Positions 7,677 to 26,589 of a stretch of 64,000 bases of DNA are shown in pieces. Where the stretch lies: assembly GCF_020034665.1 (NCBI RefSeq), contig NZ_JAIQDI010000002.1, positions 2,170,001 to 2,234,000 on the forward strand, read 5' to 3'. A program made the translations under genes and the position numbers. Origin of the DNA: Niabella beijingensis (GTDB lineage Bacteria; Bacteroidota; Bacteroidia; Chitinophagales; Chitinophagaceae). Every line of letters starts with the position of its first letter. The stretch's first letter is position 1. The notes beneath the pieces are model-generated. The model was not told the origin of the DNA and ran no database searches. It saw only the letters and a program-made list of their open reading frames with translations.

Positions 7677-10103
7677 ATGATAATATCCTATAAATGGCTG
7701 AGTGACTACCTCCCGGTTACCGTAAGTGTGGAACGATTGAGCCAGATTTTAACTTCTATCGGACTCGAAGTGGAAGCCGTTCATGAATATGAAGAATTAA
7801 AAGGCGGTCTGAAAGGCCTGGTGGTAGGCGAAGTACTGGAAACCCATCCGCATCCGAACGCTGATAAACTGAAACTGACAAAAGTTACGGTTGGCGGGGA
7901 CATCCCTCTTAACATTGTATGTGGCGCTCCCAATGTAGCCGCAGGACAAAAGGTGATTGTGGCACCCGTGGGCGCTACCATTTACCCGCTAAATAATGCA
8001 CCGGTAACCATGAAGCTGGCCAAGATCCGCGGAGAGGAAAGTCAGGGTATGATCTGTGCGGAAGACGAGATCGGCCTGGGCGCTTCACATGACGGCATCC
8101 TGGTGCTGCCGGACAATGTTAAACCCGGAACTCCGGCTTCTGAATATTTTCAGAGTTATTCGGATATGATCTTTGAGATCGGCCTTACCCCTAACCGAAT
8201 GGACGCAATGAGCCATTGGGGCGTGGCACGCGACGTATGCGCCTATCTTTCCCATCATGATAAAAAATCGGTACGGCCCAAACTTCCTGAGACCGGCAGC
8301 TTTAAGGCACCTAAAGGCAAGGCCCCGCTAAAGGTTACAGTCGAAAATAAAATAGCCTGCCCCCGTTACAGCGGCATTTGTATCGATGGTATAAAAGTGG
8401 GCCAATCACCCAAATGGCTGCAGCATGTATTAAAAGCTATTGGATTGAGACCCATAAACAATATAGTAGATATTACCAATTTCATACAACATGAAACGGG
8501 GCAACCCCTGCATGCGTTTGATGCGGATAAAATACGGGGCAACCAGGTGATCGTCAAAAACCTCCCGGAAGGCACTACCTTTATCACCCTTGATGAAAAA
8601 GAACGGAAGTTAAGTGCTGAGGACCTTATGATCTGTGACGCAGAAGGCGGAATGTGTATCGGCGGTGTTTTCGGCGGACTGGAAAGCGGCGTAACGGATC
8701 AAACGGCCCGCATTTTCCTGGAAAGTGCCTGTTTTGATCCGGTAACCATCCGCAAGACCTCTTTCCGGCACGGGCTAAGGACTGATGCCGCCACCCGCTT
8801 TGAAAAAGGCACGGACATTTCAGCAACGGTAAATGTATTGAAGCGCGCTACCGGTCTGATCCTTGAGATCTGCGGCGGAAGCATTGCCTCTGATATTTAT
8901 GATCTTTACCCGGATCCCCAGCCCCGGAAAGAGATCGCCCTGAAATATCATTACCTTAAAAAATTAAGCGGCAAGAACTATCACCCGGATGCGATCAAAT
9001 CCATTTTGCAATCACTGGGTTTTGAAGTGGAAAAAGACACGATCGATGCCCTGCTGATCTCTGTGCCCTATCATAAGCCGGACATCCGGTTGCAGGCCGA
9101 CCTGGTGGAAGAGATCCTGCGGATCGACGGGCTGGACAACGTGGAGATCCCAACATCGATAAAAATAACACCTTCTGTAGATGAAAATATTGAAAGCGAA
9201 TCTATTAAAGAAAAAATAGTTTCGCAATTAATCGGATCCGGTCACCAGGAGATCCTTACCAACTCCATCACCAACAATGCCTATTATTCTGAACAGGAGC
9301 TGACCGGTGTGGTGAAGATGAAGAACAGCCTTAGCGCTGAATTGAACATCATGCGGCCAGACATGCTGGAAACCGGGCTGGAGATCATTCTGCGGAATCT
9401 AAACCGGAAGAACGAAAATTTAAGATTATTTGAGTTTGGTAAAACGTACATTATCAACAAAAAAGGAAATTTTGAAGAACCGGAGCATCTCTGTATTTAT
9501 TTATCCGGCAATCAGCAGGCGGCCGGCTGGAAACAACCGGGTGTCAAATACGATTTCTTTGCATTGAAAGGTATTGTGGAAAAAATATTGCAGGTATGCG
9601 GTATTTCCGGAGTGCAATATGATGAGCTGGAAACACCGAATTTTCAATATGGACTGGAGCTCAAATCCGGTCCGGCGGGGCTGGGAAAGATCGGCGCCGT
9701 GCACCGGGATCTGCTGGACCGGTTCTACATCAAACAACCCGTATTCTATGCTGATCTGGATTGGAATGCCCTTTTAAAGCTGGCCTTAAAACACAAGACC
9801 CAGTTTTCCCCTATCCCAAGGTTCCCCGGTGTGCAGCGGGATATTGCCATGATCGCTCCGCAGGAGCTGCCTTACCGGTCGGTGGAGGCAGTGATCCGGA
9901 AATTAAATCTCAAAAAATTACAATCTGTTCAGCTTTTTGACGTTTTTGTAAGTGACAAACTGGGCGCCGGTAAAAAATCGCTGGCCATTAATTTTACCTT
10001 CCTGGATGAGGAAAAAACATTGACCGATGTAGAGATCGATGGCTGGATGAAGAAGATCATGCAAAGTTTGGAGAGAGATTTGCAGGTAGAAATCCGGAAA
10101 TAA
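7677..10103 (+). CDS. pheT: phenylalanine-tRNA ligase beta subunit
   Basis: Beta chain of the alpha2-beta2 enzyme that charges tRNA-Phe; pheS is not in the window. The 808-aa length is typical. Domains in order: N-terminal B1 region; EMAP/OB tRNA-binding domain (about 42-155, with HPNADKLKLTKV); B3/B4 editing domain (about 215-390, including RPINNIVDITNFI and GQPLHAFD); B5 (about 405-480); catalytic-like module (about 490-690); ferredoxin-fold anticodon-binding domain (about 714-808, from FPGVQRDIAM). The ATG at 7677 gives the expected MIISYKWLSDYL start. A weak -7-like TATATTCG lies at 7638-7645. It is the first gene of a probable operon with the coiled-coil gene and zapA. Confidence 0.96.
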   Translation: MIISYKWLSDYLPVTVSVERLSQILTSIGLEVEAVHEYEELKGGLKGLVVGEVLETHPHPNADKLKLTKVTVGGDIPLNIVCGAPNVAAGQKVIVAPVGATIYPLNNAPVTMKLAKIRGEESQGMICAEDEIGLGASHDGILVLPDNVKPGTPASEYFQSYSDMIFEIGLTPNRMDAMSHWGVARDVCAYLSHHDKKSVRPKLPETGSFKAPKGKAPLKVTVENKIACPRYSGICIDGIKVGQSPKWLQHVLKAIGLRPINNIVDITNFIQHETGQPLHAFDADKIRGNQVIVKNLPEGTTFITLDEKERKLSAEDLMICDAEGGMCIGGVFGGLESGVTDQTARIFLESACFDPVTIRKTSFRHGLRTDAATRFEKGTDISATVNVLKRATGLILEICGGSIASDIYDLYPDPQPRKEIALKYHYLKKLSGKNYHPDAIKSILQSLGFEVEKDTIDALLISVPYHKPDIRLQADLVEEILRIDGLDNVEIPTSIKITPSVDENIESESIKEKIVSQLIGSGHQEILTNSITNNAYYSEQELTGVVKMKNSLSAELNIMRPDMLETGLEIILRNLNRKNENLRLFEFGKTYIINKKGNFEEPEHLCIYLSGNQQAAGWKQPGVKYDFFALKGIVEKILQVCGISGVQYDELETPNFQYGLELKSGPAGLGKIGAVHRDLLDRFYIKQPVFYADLDWNALLKLALKHKTQFSPIPRFPGVQRDIAMIAPQELPYRSVEAVIRKLNLKKLQSVQLFDVFVSDKLGAGKKSLAINFTFLDEEKTLTDVEIDGWMKKIMQSLERDLQVEIRK

Positions 10104-18947: not shown

Positions 18948-21344
18948 ATGATTCAGAAAAAGCTGGTTATTTTAGCCATCGCTATATGCGGACTGCTTGC
19001 TGCAGGGGCGCAAACACCGGAACAAACGCTTAATAACTGGTCGGAAAAAAACAGCATAGAGAAACTTTACCTCCACCTCGACCGGGAATCGTATATCGCG
19101 GGCCAGTCGATCTGGTTCAAAGGATACCTGATGACGGACTATGTACCCAGTCTCCGGACCTCTACCGTATATGTGGAACTGCTCGACAATAATTCCGCCG
19201 TAGTCATGCGCAATATCTTTCCTGCTTATTTAGGGGTTACCCTCGGACAGATCGAAATACCCGAAACCTTTGTATCCGGTTCCTATCAGCTCAGGGCCTA
19301 TGCCCCGCTGATGCTGAACCAGCCGGGATTTGTGTACAGCAAACGGATCGAGATCTTCGGCACCGCAGCCAAAGGAACAAAAACGAAAGAAACCACTGCA
19401 GCCACCAACTTGCAGTTCTTCCCGGAAGGAGGCAACCTTATCAATACCTTACTGAACAATGTGGCCTTTAAAGCCGTTGACCAGAACGGATATCCGGTTA
19501 CGGTTTCCGGTCAGCTAAAGAACAATAAAGGGGATGTGATCACCAGCATCTCCGCTACCCATGATGGTATGGGGCTGTTCACCCTGGTGCCCCAGCCTGC
19601 TGAAACCTATTATGTGGTGCTGGATCAGAACCCGGCCAAACAATACCCCCTGCCGGCAGCTACTGCCAGGGGCATCACCTTCAGCATCGCCAATTCGCCC
19701 AAAGGAAAGCAATTTAAGATCGAACATCCCCAGAATGTGCCGGAAGAATTCCGCGCAGCGTTCATGATCGGACAAATGGGAAACCAGGTGCTCTTTAAGC
19801 AACCCCTGCAACAGGGCAAAGACCTGATCGGCGGGGTGATCCAGACCAGCAACCTGTTATCCGGCATCCTTCATGTGACCGTATTCAACAAGGACAACAT
19901 GCCGCTGGCTGAGCGGCTCACATTCATTAACAATAAGGAATACATATTACCCGGCGAACTGGTGGAAGACACCCTGAACACGACCGCCCATCAGCGGAAC
20001 CGTTTCAGTTTAAACCTGAAGGACACCATCATCGGCAACTTCAGCGTTTCGGTTACCGATGCCGATTATGAAACCAGCGAATACCGGCCGCTCAATATCT
20101 ATTCCTATTTCCTTCTTAACAGCGACCTGAAGGGCTATATCCATAACCCTGCTTATTATTTCCGGTCGGATGCCGATTCTGTAAAGAATGCGCTGGATCT
20201 TGTAATGATGACCAACGGCTGGACCCGATTTAAGTGGAGCGAAGTGGTCAAGAATACGTTACCGATCAATCAATATAAAGATCCGGGGTATATCGACCTG
20301 AAAGGCAGGATAACGATAGAAGGAACCCGCAAGCCCTTTGCCAACAAGGATGTGGTAATGATGATGCGCCCGGTGGATACGTTGCTGGGAAGATCCGGAC
20401 CGCCCAAGATCATCCAGACCGACTCCGCTGGTGGCTTCCGGCTCGACTCACAGATCATCTTTGAGACCAACCGGATATTGTTTGCAGATATCAAGGGAGC
20501 AAAAAGCAAATACATCAAGGTAAAAATGGATTCCGACTCGCTGAACCGGAGCTATACCCTGGAGCCGGTGCAGATCCCCTACCGGGACACGATCAATCCG
20601 CAGACCGAAGAAAAGATGCTGGATGCCTACAATGATTACCTGACAGCAGAAGGACTGACATTAAAAAATGTGACCGTTAAAGGCCGGCAAAAATCCGAAA
20701 AGGAAAAGCTTGAGGATGAGTACACCAGCGGTCTCTTTTCCGGCGGCATCAATTCCCGGGTACTGGACCTCAGGAATGAACCCGGCGGAGGAATGAACAT
20801 CTTTGAATACATCCAGGGCCGGATTCCCGGTGTAACGGTAACCCGCGACCAGGAGGGCCAGTATGTGGTCCGCTACAGGGATGGCGGCTTTGGAAATGGT
20901 AAAATGGCCATTTACCTGGATGAAATGCCCACAGATCCGGTGTTTATAGAATCGATTCCCGTAAACCAGATCGCATTTGTAAAAGTGATGGGCAATTTTG
21001 TCGGCGCCTCCGGCGGAGGAAGCGCCCTGGCCATCTACATGAAAAAGGGAGCAGACCTGTCTGCAGCCACCGATGCCTCCACAGATATCATTGTTTATAA
21101 GGGCTACTCCATCATCAAACAGTTCTATGCGCCTGATTATGATCTTAAAAATATCGACGCTTCCAAACCGGACAACCGGCTGACACTTGCATGGATGCCG
21201 GATATTTCCCTGGCAAATGTGAGTCCCAAAGTGCCGGTGATCTTTTACAATAACGACCGCACCAAACATTTCAGGGTAGTAGTGGAAGGACTTACCAATG
21301 ACGGGCGGATGCTGATGATCGAAAAAACCGTAGGCGGCAATTGA
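18948..21344 (+). CDS. secreted MG2-domain protein with C-terminal TonB-plug domain, no beta-barrel (copy 1)
   Basis: 798 aa with signal peptide (MIQKKLVILAIAICGLLAAGAQ). Residues about 35-140 resemble a macroglobulin MG2 domain (EKLYLHLDRESYIAGQSIWFKGYL, then FVSGSYQLRAYAP). Beta-sandwich repeats continue to about 590, with a conserved LTFINNKEYI block near 325. Residues about 600-710 look like a TonB-dependent receptor plug: ITVKGRQ-like beta strand, NIFEYIQGRIPGVTV, AIYLDEMPTDP and ALAIYMKKG. The protein ends soon after, so there is no room for the 22-strand barrel. Such proteins are a Bacteroidota family of unknown function, predicted envelope or surface proteins. A paralogue follows 108 bp downstream. 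A 7-bp hairpin without a T-tract lies between them (21356-21372), so co-transcription is likely. Confidence 0.75.
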   Translation: MIQKKLVILAIAICGLLAAGAQTPEQTLNNWSEKNSIEKLYLHLDRESYIAGQSIWFKGYLMTDYVPSLRTSTVYVELLDNNSAVVMRNIFPAYLGVTLGQIEIPETFVSGSYQLRAYAPLMLNQPGFVYSKRIEIFGTAAKGTKTKETTAATNLQFFPEGGNLINTLLNNVAFKAVDQNGYPVTVSGQLKNNKGDVITSISATHDGMGLFTLVPQPAETYYVVLDQNPAKQYPLPAATARGITFSIANSPKGKQFKIEHPQNVPEEFRAAFMIGQMGNQVLFKQPLQQGKDLIGGVIQTSNLLSGILHVTVFNKDNMPLAERLTFINNKEYILPGELVEDTLNTTAHQRNRFSLNLKDTIIGNFSVSVTDADYETSEYRPLNIYSYFLLNSDLKGYIHNPAYYFRSDADSVKNALDLVMMTNGWTRFKWSEVVKNTLPINQYKDPGYIDLKGRITIEGTRKPFANKDVVMMMRPVDTLLGRSGPPKIIQTDSAGGFRLDSQIIFETNRILFADIKGAKSKYIKVKMDSDSLNRSYTLEPVQIPYRDTINPQTEEKMLDAYNDYLTAEGLTLKNVTVKGRQKSEKEKLEDEYTSGLFSGGINSRVLDLRNEPGGGMNIFEYIQGRIPGVTVTRDQEGQYVVRYRDGGFGNGKMAIYLDEMPTDPVFIESIPVNQIAFVKVMGNFVGASGGGSALAIYMKKGADLSAATDASTDIIVYKGYSIIKQFYAPDYDLKNIDASKPDNRLTLAWMPDISLANVSPKVPVIFYNNDRTKHFRVVVEGLTNDGRMLMIEKTVGGN

Positions 21345-21452: not shown

Positions 21453-23834
21453 ATGATGCGCTTTTTTAAACTCATTGCAGCATTGGTTGCAATCACCTCC
21501 GCTGCACCGGTGTTCGGCCAGGATTTTGTGTCCCGCCTGGAGACGTGGAATGAAAAAAATCCCATTGAAAAAACATACCTCCAGCTGGACCGCGGAACCT
21601 ATTTCTCCGGACAAACGATTTGGTTCAAAGCCTATTTTTTATCCGGCTTTCTTCCGTCTGCTGCAAACTCAACGCTGTTTGTAGAATTATTAAACAATCA
21701 ATCGGCCCTGGTGCTCAAAAAGATCGTTCCCGTATTCGGGGCGCTCTCCTATGGCCAGTTCGACCTGCCGGATTCCCTACCTACCGGATCCTACCAGTTA
21801 CGGGCCTATACACCGCTGATGCTGAATTTTGATAAAGCTTACCTGTTTTCCCAAAGGGTAATGATCTACGGCCGCAATAAACCACGCGCGGTTCCGCCGG
21901 CACCGGCCGCGGTCAGTATCCGTTTTTTCCCCGAAGGCGGTAACCTGGTCTCGGGGATCAGCAATATTGTAGCATTTAAAGCAGTTGACCAGAATGGCCT
22001 GCCCGCCAACGTCTCCGGCGAGATCCGCGATGAAGCGAATAAAATGATCACTGCATTTACAAGCAGTCATAACGGGATGGGGCAACTTACCCTTACACCG
22101 GTTGCGGGTATGCGGTATCATGCGGCATTAACCGGACAGCAACAAGTGGAGTTGCCGCAAAGCAGCACGGAAGGCTTGGTGCTGAAATTAAAAAACGACC
22201 GTGCCGCCAAAACCTTTACGCTTGATTACAGGGGCAGCCGCTACACACCTGTATATATGGTTGGTCAGATGCAGCACCAGATCGTATTTAAACAAGCCCT
22301 CTCCTCCACAGGTAATAACCGGATAAACGGTGTCATTCAAACCGGCGACCTGCCATCCGGTGTATTGCAGATCACCTTTTTTAACAAAGATGGTATACCC
22401 CTTGCAGAGCGGCTGACCTTTATCAACAATAAAGAATACATACTACCGGCAACCTTCCGCGCCGATACACTGAATACAGCGCCCCGTAAACGGAATCATT
22501 TCAGCATTGAAGTTCCGGACAGCATCACCGGTAATTTCTCCGTTTCGGTAACCGATGCTGACTATGATGCAGCTGGAACCCGCCCGCAAAACATTTACAG
22601 TACGTTCCTGCTCACCAGCGATATGCCCGGGTATATACACGAGCCCGCCTATTACCTGGGCAATGATGCCGCGGCATCAGATGCAGTGGAACTCGTGATG
22701 CTGACCAACGGGTGGCGCCGGTTCAAATGGACCGATGTGACGGCCAATACCCTTCCGGAACCACAGCATAAAGACCCCGGTTTTATCAGTCTTTCGGGTA
22801 AGGCCACCATCGCCGGATCTGGCAGATCATTTGCAGACCGTGATCTGCTGGTATGGGTAGCTACCGATTCGGGCCGCAGTCTGCAGATGGTAAAAACGGA
22901 TGCAGAAGGCCGCTTCAAAATGGATTCTATGATCTTTTTTAATAAAGCAAGGGTGCTGTTCAGTGATGTGATGGGAACCAAAAACAAATTCCTTACCATA
23001 AAACTGAATGCCGATTCGCTGACCCGCTCTTATGCGCTTCCCCCTTTGAAACTTCCGCTGGACCCTGCAACCGGAACAACCGGCACGCTGCCGGTCAAAA
23101 TGAATACTGCCTATTTTGACTATACGCGCGGTGAAGGTGTAATGCTGGACAGCGTTGTGGTACTGGGAACCAGGAACCGGCTGCAGCAACTGGAAGAACG
23201 CTATATGAGCGGGTTGTTTGCCGGCGGTATCAATGCCCGGACGCTGGACCTGACCCGCGAGTTCATCCCTAACATGAACATCTTTGATTATCTGCAGGGG
23301 CGCATTCCCAGTCTGACCATTGAACGCGGTGGTCAGTTTGGGAATTACCGGTTGTTTTACCGGCAGGCCGGCGCCAGACAGCCCATGCAACTGTACCTGG
23401 ATGAAGTGCCCACCGACGCCAGCATGATCGCCGCTATTCCGCCTTCCGATATTGCGCTGGTAAAAGTATTTCCCAGTTTTGCGGGCGCACCCGGTGGTGG
23501 CGGCAATGGGGTGCTTGCGGTGTACACCAAACGCGGCGATGAACTCAACCGCTCTATGGAATCATCTGCCACCATTGTGGATTATGAAGGGTACAGCATT
23601 ATGAAGGAATTCTATGCCCCCGATTACGCCATACCTGCGGCCAACCAATACAACGACTACCGGCTGACGCTCGACTGGAAGCCCGAAGTATTTGTTTCCG
23701 GCAGCGATCAGCGCATCTCCATCCCTTTTTATAATAATGACCGTACCAGGCGGTTCAAGATAGTTGCCGAAGGAATTACCAGCACCGGTAAATTATTGAT
23801 GGTGGAGCAGTATGTGGAGCGGGGTACAAAATAA
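21453..23834 (+). CDS. secreted MG2-domain protein with C-terminal TonB-plug domain, no beta-barrel (copy 2)
   Basis: 793-aa paralogue of the preceding gene, similar from end to end: signal peptide ending VFGQ, EKTYLQLDRGTYFSGQTIWFKAYFL (MG2-like, about 38-62), RLTFINNKEYILPATF (about 325), DLLVW and VDAYF-type sandwich strands, then the plug-like part NIFDYLQGRIPSLTIERG, LYLDEVPTDAS and VLAVYTKRGDE (about 605-700) and no barrel. Sequence divergence shows an old duplication. Function unknown; one possibility is an accessory envelope protein that docks with outer-membrane transport or proteolysis systems. The stop at 23834 is 66 bp before the repeat array. Confidence 0.75.
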   Translation: MMRFFKLIAALVAITSAAPVFGQDFVSRLETWNEKNPIEKTYLQLDRGTYFSGQTIWFKAYFLSGFLPSAANSTLFVELLNNQSALVLKKIVPVFGALSYGQFDLPDSLPTGSYQLRAYTPLMLNFDKAYLFSQRVMIYGRNKPRAVPPAPAAVSIRFFPEGGNLVSGISNIVAFKAVDQNGLPANVSGEIRDEANKMITAFTSSHNGMGQLTLTPVAGMRYHAALTGQQQVELPQSSTEGLVLKLKNDRAAKTFTLDYRGSRYTPVYMVGQMQHQIVFKQALSSTGNNRINGVIQTGDLPSGVLQITFFNKDGIPLAERLTFINNKEYILPATFRADTLNTAPRKRNHFSIEVPDSITGNFSVSVTDADYDAAGTRPQNIYSTFLLTSDMPGYIHEPAYYLGNDAAASDAVELVMLTNGWRRFKWTDVTANTLPEPQHKDPGFISLSGKATIAGSGRSFADRDLLVWVATDSGRSLQMVKTDAEGRFKMDSMIFFNKARVLFSDVMGTKNKFLTIKLNADSLTRSYALPPLKLPLDPATGTTGTLPVKMNTAYFDYTRGEGVMLDSVVVLGTRNRLQQLEERYMSGLFAGGINARTLDLTREFIPNMNIFDYLQGRIPSLTIERGGQFGNYRLFYRQAGARQPMQLYLDEVPTDASMIAAIPPSDIALVKVFPSFAGAPGGGGNGVLAVYTKRGDELNRSMESSATIVDYEGYSIMKEFYAPDYAIPAANQYNDYRLTLDWKPEVFVSGSDQRISIPFYNNDRTRRFKIVAEGITSTGKLLMVEQYVERGTK

Positions 23835-23900
23835 AATACTGAACGTCACTAAAACGCCTTAACCGCATTGAAGCTGATGCCTTCATATTTTTAAAGATCA

Positions 23901-25207
23901 CCGGTGCGCTGCACCTGTTCACACCTGTTTTACCTTTTGGGCTATTGCGGTTGACGCCGCTAACGCAGCTTAGAAAATCAAACACCGTTTTCATGCGTTC
24001 TGAGATAAGGTGCAGCGCACCGGCTGCCCCGATAGCAAGATCATTATGTCGGTCATGAGCCGCAGCGCGGCGGTAACCTATCAAAAATTGTTGCATATCT
24101 ATGTACCTATGTTCCCGTTTGTTTTTGAACGATCGATTGATTCAGCCAATGCAATTCAAAAAAAACAAGCCGGAATTTCCTTTCCATCCATGGCTCAGGT
24201 GCAGCGCACCAGAAATCCCGGTAACAAGATCATGATATTACATGTGAGCCGCAGCGCAGCGGTAACCTGTCGGAAGATTATTTCATAATTATTGCACTTA
24301 TGTCCTTCTTGTTTTTGAGTTGCACTAAATTTGACGCTGCTAACCAGCTCAGAAAATCAAACACCGTTTTCAAGCCTTCCGAGATAAGGTGCAGCCCGCC
24401 GGCCGGCCCCGTAGCAAGATCATCACGTCAGGCATGAGCCGCAGCGCGGCCGTAACCTGTCGGAAGATTATTCATATTACTGCACTTATGCCCTCTTGTT
24501 TTTGAGTTGCACTAAATTTGACGCTGCTAACACAGCTCAGAAAATCAAACACAACTTTGCCTTCTGAGATAAGGTGCAGCGCGCCGGCCGCCTCGTAGCA
24601 AGATCATCACATCAGGTATGAACCGCAGCGCGGCCGTAACCTGTCGGAAGATTATTCATATTACTGCACTTATGCCCTCTTGTTTTTGAGTTGCACTAAA
24701 TTTGACGCTGCTAACACAGCTCAGAAAATCAAACACAACTTTGCCTTCTGAGATAAGGTGCAGCGCGCCGGCCGCCCCCGTATCAAGATCGTCACATCAG
24801 GCATGAGCCACAGCGCGGCGGTGAGCTGACAGAAGATTATTTCATATTACTGCACCTTATGCCCCTCTTGTTTTTGAATTGCACTAATTTGACGCTGCTA
24901 ACACAGCTCAGAAAATCAAACACGGTTTTCATGTCCTCTGAGATAAGGTGCAGCGCGCCGGCCGCCCCCGTAGCAAGATCATCACGTCAGGCATGAGCGG
25001 CGGTGAGAAAATAGCTTCATAGCTATGTGCCCCATGTTCCCGTTTGTTTTTGAACGATCGATTGATTCCGCCAATGCAATTCAAAAAAAACAAGCCGGAA
25101 TTTCCTTTCCATCCAAACACGGTTTTCATGTCCTCTGAGATGAGGTGCAGCGCACCGGTTGCCCCGATAGCAAGATCATTATGTCAGGCATGAGCCACAG
25201 CGCGGCG
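23901..25207 (+). repeat. left repeat array, leader plus seven hairpin units
   Basis: Leader 23901-24003 with inverted hairpin CCGGTGCGCTGCACC at 23901-23915. Units begin at 24004, 24196, 24383, 24568, 24752, 24942 and 25139 (the last truncated near 25207), spaced 184-197 bp. Each has hairpin 1, GGTGC-AGC-GCACC (or GCGCC), then about 40 bp containing a GTAGCAAGATCATCA-like core, then hairpin 2, GCCGC-AGC-GCGGC, and a spacer. Two spacer types occur: type A (core TGCACTAAATTTGACGCTGC) in units 2-5, type B (core GAACGATCGATTGATTC) in units 1 and 6. Units 3 and 4 are almost identical over their length. Unit 6 lacks hairpin 2 by an 8-base deletion. Confidence 0.85.
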
Positions 25208-25349
25208 ATGATATACCTGCGATAGCCATTTGTAAAAATAAACCGGCGCCGCTCAGCCATACCGACCAATATAATAACCTATTACGGATACTTTATCCAG
25301 GTTTCTACACGGAACACCGGTAATCAGCAATCGAAATAATAAACGGCAA

Positions 25350-25380
25350 TTTGAAATATATAAAAAATAAATTATATTTA
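25350..25380 (+). promoter_or_regulatory. promoter of the Y1 transposase gene
   Basis: TTTG at 25350-25353 and TATATTTA at 25373-25380, separated by 19 bases: a near-perfect Bacteroidota housekeeping promoter (consensus TTTG-N19-TAnnTTTG, one mismatch). It ends 17 bases before the ATG and lies in unique DNA outside the repeat array, so the gene is probably expressed independently of the repeats. Confidence 0.6.
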
Positions 25381-25397
25381 CTGCAAAAAAACCAGCT

Positions 25398-25865
25398 ATG
25401 GCAAACACCTACACGCAATGTTATGTGCATTTGGTCTTTTCTCCCAAAAACAGAGAAGCATTAATCAAATACCAGTGGCAGGATCAACTTGAAAAGTATA
25501 TCACCGGTATTATACAGAATCAAAAACACAAGCTGCTGGCCATTGGCTCAATGCCCGACCACATTCACATTTTCATTGGCTATAATATAAATCAGCTGAT
25601 ACCAGATCTTGTGGAAACAATAAAAACCTCTTCTTCTGCCTGGATCAAATACTCCGGGTTATCCGCTTTCAAATTTGAATGGCAACGGGGCTACGGCGCT
25701 TTTACGCATTCGCATGCCCAGGTAGACACTGTTATAAATTATATCCGTAACCAGGAGACACATCATAAAAAGAAAAGTTTTAAAGATGAATATCGCGACT
25801 TGTTAAAAGAGTTTGAAGTTGGATTTAATGAAAATTATCTATTTGACTTTTTTGACCAGCAATAA
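25398..25865 (+). CDS. REP-associated tyrosine transposase (IS200/IS605 TnpA-like, HUH/Y1)
   Basis: A 155-aa single-strand DNA endonuclease of the TnpA/RAYT superfamily; related enzymes recognise hairpins in single-stranded DNA and cut with a 5'-phosphotyrosine link. The HUH motif is His55-Ile-His57 in GSMPDHIHIFIG. The catalytic Tyr is probably Tyr115 in VINYIRNQETHHKKKSF. The opening MANTYTQCYVHLVFSPKNRE and FEWQRGYGAF are typical of the Bacteroidota branch. The length is normal, with no TnpB or RNA-guided partner. The flanking hairpin arrays make it a RAYT by context. Intact reading frame and own promoter suggest it is still made. By sequence alone it could be labelled an IS200-family transposase. 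Confidence 0.85.
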   Translation: MANTYTQCYVHLVFSPKNREALIKYQWQDQLEKYITGIIQNQKHKLLAIGSMPDHIHIFIGYNINQLIPDLVETIKTSSSAWIKYSGLSAFKFEWQRGYGAFTHSHAQVDTVINYIRNQETHHKKKSFKDEYRDLLKEFEVGFNENYLFDFFDQQ

Positions 25866-25948
25866 AATAAATGTCCTGTCTTTTTCTGAATGAAATCACA
25901 CAATATATTGGACAGTCCTATTATCAAACTAGCTTTTAACTAAAATTA

Positions 25949-26495
25949 CCGGTGCGCTGCACCTGTATGCCCGTTTGCTTTTGAGGCTATTGCGATTGAC
26001 GCTGCTAACGCAGCTTAGAAAATCAAACACCGTTTTCATGCGTTCTGAGATAAGGTGCAGCGCACCGGCCGCCCCCGTAGCAAGATCATCATGTCGGGCA
26101 TGAGCGGCGGTGAGAAAATAGCTCCATAGCTATGTGTCCATGTTCCCGTTTGTTTTTGAACGATCGATTGATTCCACCAATGCAATTCAAAAAAAACAAA
26201 CCGGAATTTCCTTTCCATCCACGGCTCAGGTGCAGCGCGCCGGCCAGTCCCGTAACAAGATCGTCATGTCGGGTGTGAGCCGCAGCGCGGCGGTAACCTA
26301 TCAGAAGATTATTTCATATTACTGCACTTATGCCCTCTTGTTTTTGAATTGCACTAATTTGATGCTGCTAACGCAGCTCAGAAATTCAAACACGGTTTTC
26401 ATGTCCTCTGAGATGAGGTGCAGCGCAGCGGCTGCCCCGATAGCAAGATCATCATGTCGGGCATGAGCCGCAGCGCGGCGGTGAGCTGACAGAAG
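25949..26495 (+). repeat. right repeat array, leader plus three hairpin units
   Basis: Leader 25949-26048 starts with the same inverted hairpin (25949-25963) and closely matches the left leader, including the run from CGCAGCTTAGAAAATC to the GTTCTGA junction. Units begin at 26049 (type B spacer, hairpin 2 deleted by the same 8 bases as unit 6 on the left), 26226 (type A spacer) and 26412 (truncated after hairpin 2 near 26495). The leader hairpin and hairpin 1 of the first unit form a perfect 15-bp inverted repeat with outer ends at 25949 and 26068; the equivalent pair in the left array spans 23901-24023. Confidence 0.85.
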
Positions 26496-26589
26496 GTAGT
26501 TTTATATTTCATGAAGCTATAACCGGGCACAAAGTTCAGCCTTCCGCTTCCTCGCCTGCTTTGCTTATCTTTATTGCCAAACGTATACT

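Follow-up and report, generated by a model that had tools for sequence, protein, structure and literature searches.

The REPtrons of the TnpA-REP class (class 2; REP-associated tyrosine transposases, RAYTs), known for example from E. coli, consist of a Y1 gene of low copy number with repetitive extragenic palindromes (REPs) of its own on either side, and these REPs also occur as dispersed extragenic copies, as inverted doublets and as gene-matched sets within one genome, as described in the parts of PMC6006769 and PMC8266576 used here. In those sections of the former study (Quentin et al. 2018) that deal with subclass 1.2 of TnpA-Y1, the subclass is left without REPs and without a function, the REP entry in Table 1 reading 'no'. 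The present work concerns a locus in a stretch of 64,000 nucleotides of the Niabella beijingensis contig NZ_JAIQDI010000002.1—the window, to which the figures for the locus refer—taken from a genome of 6.59 Mb in three contigs. The locus consists of a Y1 transposase-like gene framed by two arrays of hairpin-bearing repeats, and it is quite probably a REPtron built on an IS200-related Y1 enzyme that is not an insertion sequence (IS), its REPs differing in type from those published.

The gene, at 25398–25865 on the + strand, codes for a Y1/HUH single-strand DNA transposase-like protein of 155 residues; the earlier note, which had read an intact HIH motif and tyrosine in it, is borne out by the catalytic residues H55-I-H57 and Tyr115 and by a match to Pfam Y1_Tnp at 97.7 bits. 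By its sequence family and catalytic motifs the enzyme resembles those of IS200/IS605 (IS608, ISDra2), and it shares with subclass 1.2 TnpA-Y1, as far as this is set out in the text of Quentin et al. (2018) used here, the signatures DHIH, WQ and Y---Q--HH, a length of about 150 residues and a low copy number. Unlike class 2 as described there, it is of class 1 (IS200-like), its tyrosine motif, YIRNQETHH, lacking the NP ending of TnpA-REP/RAYT proteins. It passes the NCBIfam IS200 model (71.6 bits, cut-off 55) and fails the REP_Tyr model NF047646 (24 bits, cut-off 80), all six proteins tested lying above the former cut-off and below the latter. The protein alignment and tree comprise 112 rows, i.e. 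the window protein, its two paralogs, 80 relatives (the best of at least 561 confirmed in one scan, mostly from Bacteroidota according to the record titles) and 29 family loci besides the window's own, a match having been found in 66 of the 117 genomes of the family. HuH together with Y---Q--HH is complete in 109 of these rows, Q96 is present in all 112 and Q119 in 111. The window enzyme is, judged from its sequence, a member of subclass 1.2 TnpA-Y1 and not of the RAYT class. The genome holds three divergent Y1 genes in place of the several near-identical copies that characterize IS200/IS605, and comparison of the window gene with its counterparts in the congeneric genomes G162 and G157 points to purifying selection (dN 0.11 and 0.14, dS saturated or nearly so).

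Concerning the arrays, seven hairpin-1 cores on the + strand lie to the left of the gene and three to the right, spaced 175–197 bp apart, and the tandem core of the left array (24245–24998) is reported by Tandem Repeats Finder with a period of 184, 4.0 copies and 91% matches, in agreement with the seven and three units of about 185 bp recognized previously. The unit is composite, hairpin 1 (GGTGC-AGC-GCRCC; the REP1 element) being followed about 50 bp further on by hairpin 2 (GCCGC-AGC-GCGGC; REP2) and then by a spacer. REP1 is found at 24009–24023, 24198–24212, 24388–24402, 24573–24587, 24757–24771, 24947–24961 and 25144–25158 in left units 1 to 7, and at 26054–26068, 26229–26243 and 26417–26431 in right units 1 to 3, all on the + strand; all ten were retrieved by the core search, left units 2 and 3 and right unit 3 with one mismatch to the 15-nt core, and all except left unit 3 also by the covariance model R1 described below. 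The REP2 stem, likewise on the + strand, is perfect in four of the ten units (24059–24071 and 24438–24450 in left units 1 and 3, 26279–26291 and 26467–26479 in right units 2 and 3; perfect-hairpin search); by eye, it is imperfect at 24248–24260, 24622–24634, 24807–24819 and 25194–25206 in left units 2, 4, 5 and 7, and apparently deleted near 24996–25004 in left unit 6 and near 26100–26114 in right unit 1. The repeats are not all in one orientation, as had been thought, since two inverted REPs on the − strand were revealed by the core search, one at the left outer end with its tail pointing outward (23901–23915; model R1, 33.9 bits) and the other directly 3' of the gene (25949–25963; 37.6 bits). 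Perfect GC-rich hairpins with a 5-bp stem and a 3-nt loop number 10 in 23835–26589 versus 26 in 61,264 bp of the window outside the locus.

The REPtron arrangement, i.e. flanking REPs that are also dispersed, was found in the window genome. The 15-nt core GGTGCAGCGCRCCGG, at no more than one mismatch, matches the genome 41 times, 12 times in the locus and 29 times elsewhere, its reversed control—the same pattern read backwards, used for all cores below—giving no match. The 184-bp unit, in contrast, yielded 12 BLAST matches, all 12 inside the locus, by which the whole unit is ruled out as a mobile element; the genome search proposed in the earlier note thus finds dispersed copies for the short core and none for the unit. 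All the 29 dispersed cores lie in 20 fetched stretches, where two REP types occur, and 25 of them fall outside open reading frames (ORFs) of at least 120 residues and only four inside, though 75% of the fetched sequence belongs to such ORFs (binomial p 7e-12). An inverted partner (up to two mismatches) is present 56–113 bp away in 9 of the 20 stretches, eight of these doublets being spaced 86–113 bp and the ninth 56 bp, with none within 120 bp in the other 11. Tandem arrays without a gene were also seen, comprising four copies at 182–183 bp (L036), five at 215–219 bp (L023), three at 350–351 bp (L031) and three at 247 bp (L018), and none of the three Y1 genes of the genome lies within the 20 stretches. 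Such inverted doublets and gene-free arrays are like those of bacterial interspersed mosaic elements (BIMEs) and REPINs (REP doublets forming hairpins), from which the elements of the window genome differ in the type of hairpin and tail and in having no 5' GTAG foot.

The covariance model R1, built from 31 dispersed REPs with none from the locus, recovers 12 array sites at E < 0.02, the two inverted REPs scoring highest; its best match in the window outside the locus (9837–9879, − strand, 13.9 bits, E 0.05) is single and weak. The dispersed and conserved element is a short REP, formed by a 13-nt hairpin (5-bp stem, 3-nt loop) and a tail of about 13 nt, and it is for this reason that the 'large-unit' system suggested by the earlier note does not hold, the 185-bp period reflecting local tandem amplification. 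Its idea that the hairpins are multiplied in a RAYT-like manner survives in part: the many dispersed copies with one cognate gene agree with it, but the enzyme, accepted by the IS200 model and rejected by REP_Tyr, stands outside the RAYT class. It should be added that the three Y1 genes of the genome are accompanied by three different hairpin sets, the hairpin of the gene at L011 having 86 genome sites at up to two mismatches (control 5), of which the L011 stretch itself holds seven. This stretch (C1:946186-949530) represents a second REPtron of the window genome, with several hairpin types, an array of 160–170 bp period and, by eye, a helix-turn-helix-like ORF between the left hairpins and the enzyme gene.

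Similar hairpins accompany the genes of the relatives, where they were counted as perfect, GC-rich, with a 5-bp stem and a 3-nt loop. Around the 80 relatives their density is 5.10/kb within 100 bp of the gene versus 0.12/kb at 1.5–3 kb (about 40-fold), and at the 29 family loci 5.52/kb within 100 bp versus 0.21/kb at 1–1.5 kb; outside ORFs of at least 80 residues, the near and far values are 5.53 versus 0.43/kb and 5.50 versus 0.41/kb, respectively. The control gene nif3 has 0.21 hairpins/kb around it in 14 loci. A hairpin is located within 500 bp of the gene for 54 of the 80 relatives and 24 of the 29 family loci, as well as near the gene in 16 of 18 usable loci of the genus, a set that omits the short locus L178 and counts in two re-fetched sites and, from the window genome, the gene at L009. 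The hairpins thus found near genes differ from the published description of subclass 1.2, with its REP entry 'no' in the table seen; it is this description that is contradicted by the association, and not the membership of the window protein.

The hairpins were oriented via the loop, using loop classes set by ourselves and dropping 31 of 305 hairpins with other loops. The flank following them on the 3' side approximates the consensus GNNATATTTGTAG, TTTGTAG occurring in 53 of 274 3' flanks versus none of 274 5' flanks. GTAG is found 3' of the hairpin, at +10 to +13, in 74 of 289 hairpins near genes, and the published 5' foot, GT[AG]G at 0–2 nt from the stem, in one of the 289. In having a conserved stretch on the 3' side of a hairpin, the arrangement is reminiscent of the IS200/IS605 right end. 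The association was also approached from the tail, without presupposing the hairpin, for tail motifs up to 1 kb from the genes in 26 loci, the window being left out: a perfect 5-bp hairpin is located where expected, or displaced by 1 nt, for 54 of 83 motifs and in 20 of the 26 loci, the 54 hairpins using 15 different stems, AT-rich ones included, while the far control has a hairpin at one of five motifs. The REP type described here is unlike that of class 2, as characterized in the parts of the literature used here, in its stem of 5 bp, its loop of 3 nt and its GTAG placed 3' and not as a 5' foot. According to the search description in PMC6006769, the automatic search of Quentin et al. (2018) relied on GT[AG]G at 0–2 nt before a stem of at least seven paired nucleotides, and with these criteria hairpins of the window type would be missed.

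Arrays have also been met beside other relatives. At L048, a tandem array of GGTGC-GTA-GCACC hairpins with a 39-bp period, at first sight similar to clustered regularly interspaced short palindromic repeats (CRISPR), extends from about 1075 to 196 bp upstream of the enzyme relative and has 12 perfect copies within 1 kb. Periods of 25, 50 and 90 bp were observed downstream of the gene at L045, upstream at L175 and downstream at L174, respectively, so that the array period varies between species.

The type of hairpin follows the enzyme. On the tree of the 112 proteins, the inner stem dinucleotide requires 7 changes versus a shuffled mean of 21.9, none of the 200 shuffles giving so few; the 35 rows lacking a hairpin label are excluded from the count. 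All the 18 rows of the window clade (SH-aLRT 97) are of the GC-type, although about half of the inner branches of the tree are weak (50 of 108), and the hosts of this clade, taken from the record titles, cover Saprospiraceae, Prolixibacteraceae, Sphingobacteriaceae, Marinifilaceae, Caldithrix and others. The core GGTGCAGCGCACC, searched in the 117 family genomes, occurs 18 times in the window genome versus 12 times in the other 116 together (in 11 genomes), with the reversed control giving 0 and 3. Reciprocal contrasts, each with a p of about 2e-6, were obtained for two further cores: the 18 GC-type genomes hold 220 copies of GGTGCAGMGCACC (17 genomes positive) and 6 of GTCCCGTAGGGAC (3 positive), the 17 GTCCC-type genomes 12 (5 positive) and 93 (16 positive), respectively, with reversed controls of 0 and 5 over all 35 genomes.

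The number of hairpins behaves similarly within the genus, the six genomes with an enzyme ortholog of at least 65% identity having 41, 44, 14, 26, 6 and 20 cores and the eleven without a match over 55% having 6, 11, 0, 2, 0, 0, 1, 2, 0, 0 and 1 (reversed control 0 in the 17 genomes; Mann–Whitney p 0.0008, or 0.002 once local copies and G149, for which not all matches were listed, are left out). As a family, the hairpins are dispersed, mostly extragenic, often arranged in inverted doublets, typical of the enzyme clade and commoner in those genomes of the genus that bear the enzyme. Among the many related bacteria compared, hairpins of a particular kind tend to go with each version of the enzyme, a pattern that points to the enzyme as the agent of their spread.

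Across the genus, one site—between the gene for a 793-residue protein and nif3—exhibits gene-bearing, hairpin-only and empty states. In the window, the 793-residue gene (21453–23834) and an adjoining, by eye paralog-like gene for 798 residues (18948–21344) lie just upstream of the array. The enzyme gene with its arrays occupies the same site in G162 and G157 (84 and 79% identical), the order in G162 being inverted REP, REP1, REP2, gene, inverted REP, REP1, REP2 and then 155-bp repeats, a period seen in two other species of the genus. G158 (L190) has no gene there and only a gap of 240 bp, in which REP2 is perfect and an imperfect inverted REP and REP1 can be made out by eye, at matching spacings, the element being partly degenerate; such a state could result from recombination between the two copies flanking the gene or from a single insertion. 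The site is empty in G153 and G154, with 125 and 123 bp between the two genes, where a decayed REP may remain (GGTGCAG followed by TAATA). In the trees of nif3 and the 793-residue gene, G157 (with the gene) is the sister of G153 (empty), with G154 (empty) next; the empty and filled sites have only the nif3-proximal box in common. The occupation of one site in several species may reflect either a single insertion followed by losses or gain on more than one occasion. The outgroup loci L156, L158, L159 and L160, with the same gene order, have 26–114 bp at the site, and window-type hairpins were not matched in them. G159 has the gene at a different place, there too preceded by an array of about 188 bp.

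These observations could be accounted for by the following mechanism. On either side of the gene there would be a copy of the REPIN-like element that belongs to it, with the order inverted REP, about 110 bp, REP1, about 50 bp, REP2, and both copies would have been expanded in tandem. The enzyme would bind the short hairpin in single-stranded DNA, as the TnpA of IS200/IS605 does, and its tyrosine would cut in or near the conserved 3' tail (approximately GNNATATTTGTAG), the position of the cut being our own inference and the binding and cutting steps following the enzymology of IS200/IS605 and TnpA-REP as given in the parts of PMC8266576 used here. Such cutting would copy or move single REPs and REPINs to new sites, so that movement of the hairpins by the enzyme would underlie their dispersal; the REPs would depend on the enzyme and decay after its loss. 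The array of about 185 bp would have arisen secondarily, near-identical units beside the source gene having been duplicated in tandem by slippage, by homologous recombination or by the action of the enzyme.

Other explanations have to be weighed against the REPtron. That the enzyme is a passenger, the REPs being spread by something else, such as recombination or another Y1 enzyme, and the gene persisting because they serve it as landing sites, finds some support in G159 and G156, where the gene and nif3 are far apart and the gene is thus not tied to one site; it is nevertheless improbable, as hairpin types sort by enzyme clade even where the hosts are unlike, the three such enzymes of the window genome have three hairpin sets, and within the genus the number of REPs goes with the enzyme. 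A second alternative, an IS200-type insertion sequence whose left and right ends were duplicated in place, would agree with the score against the NCBIfam IS200 model, with the presence of hairpins on both sides of the gene and with the eight solved sequences matched, all transposases and one of them named ISHp608. This is quite improbable too, given that the window genome contains no near-identical copy of the gene, the paralogs being 54 and 39% identical, and that the hairpins are dispersed without it; moreover, no tnpB-like ORF was recognized by eye among the ORFs at 20–30 kb of the window, and the genuine-looking insertion sequence of the family, from G116 (12 matches, 145 residues), is quite unlike the window gene. 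It is these same features—no multicopy IS in the window genome, no tnpB recognized nearby, gene-free dispersal of the hairpins—that set the locus apart from IS200/IS605.

The remaining alternative, raised by the earlier note, takes the array as transcribed and processed, in the manner of a small-RNA or CRISPR-like locus, with the enzyme incidental. Its regular period and the hairpins, which could also fold in RNA, speak for it. The Rfam scan of the array, however, found no credible RNA family, the sole match being a snoRNA at E 0.98, below the cut-off; the period is not conserved (185 bp here, 155 bp in two species, about 50 and 90 bp at other genes of the genus), and the conserved part is the short hairpin with its tail, which occurs singly elsewhere. 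Processing of the array is hence most doubtful. Apart from this question, two genomes with multiple matches of the enzyme type may be mentioned: G116, with ten of its 12 matches listed and with near-equal scores, and G155, whose eight listed matches, of equal score, all have internal stops in the matched frame.

Several points nonetheless weigh against the REPtron as proposed. No such hairpin is present within 500 bp of the gene for 26 of the 80 relatives and 5 of the 29 family loci, and in the tail-anchored test 27 of the 83 motifs are without a hairpin and two have it 2 nt off, while three loci (L042, L045 and L037) supply 26 of the 54 positives. The tails within the array of the window itself are poor, and best in the inverted copies: the REP1 and REP2 copies have no good ATATTTGTAG tail, something resembling it being retained only by the inverted copies and by one of the two dispersed REP types, and it is because most of its REP copies have poor tails that the array may be decaying. 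The hairpin of the third Y1 gene of the genome, L009, is hardly dispersed (5 sites at up to one mismatch, three of them local). As for the comparisons between genomes, the 35 genomes used for GGTGCAGMGCACC and GTCCCGTAGGGAC were picked by their local hairpins and the local copies were counted; the ortholog cut of 65% was set after the gap (65 versus 55%) had been seen; one ortholog-bearing genome has 6 cores and two ortholog-free genomes have 6 and 11; absence of the ortholog is less sure in three of the eleven genomes, which are 72–83% complete; and the p values ignore relatedness.

Concerning its novelty, REPs for subclass 1.2 are not described in the literature matches listed, subscription papers and preprints being outside the search. 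Of these matches, PMC11194056 deals with a RayT gene from Chryseobacteria, neither REP nor hairpin occurring as a whole word in the text searched, and PMC3733652, in the portion seen, with GTAG and CGTC repeats and with genes flanked by terminal inverted repeats. The locus leads to a broader proposal, on which the balance is even: REP-spreading would have arisen a second time, independently of the RAYTs, from IS200-type enzymes (subclass 1.2) in Bacteroidota and their neighbours. It would use a REP of opposite polarity—a mini-hairpin of 13 nt, with a GTAG 9 nt later that would belong to the cut site in place of acting as a 5' foot—and the enzyme lineages would each carry and re-tune a hairpin of their own.

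If the REPtron reading is true, a set of proteins claimed by the NCBIfam IS200 model, as were all six tested here, would turn out to be domesticated enzymes, each with a hairpin family to itself. The step from an insertion sequence to a REP system would then be open to study in a class still close to IS200, for which the genus offers the gene-bearing, hairpin-only and empty states of one and the same site.

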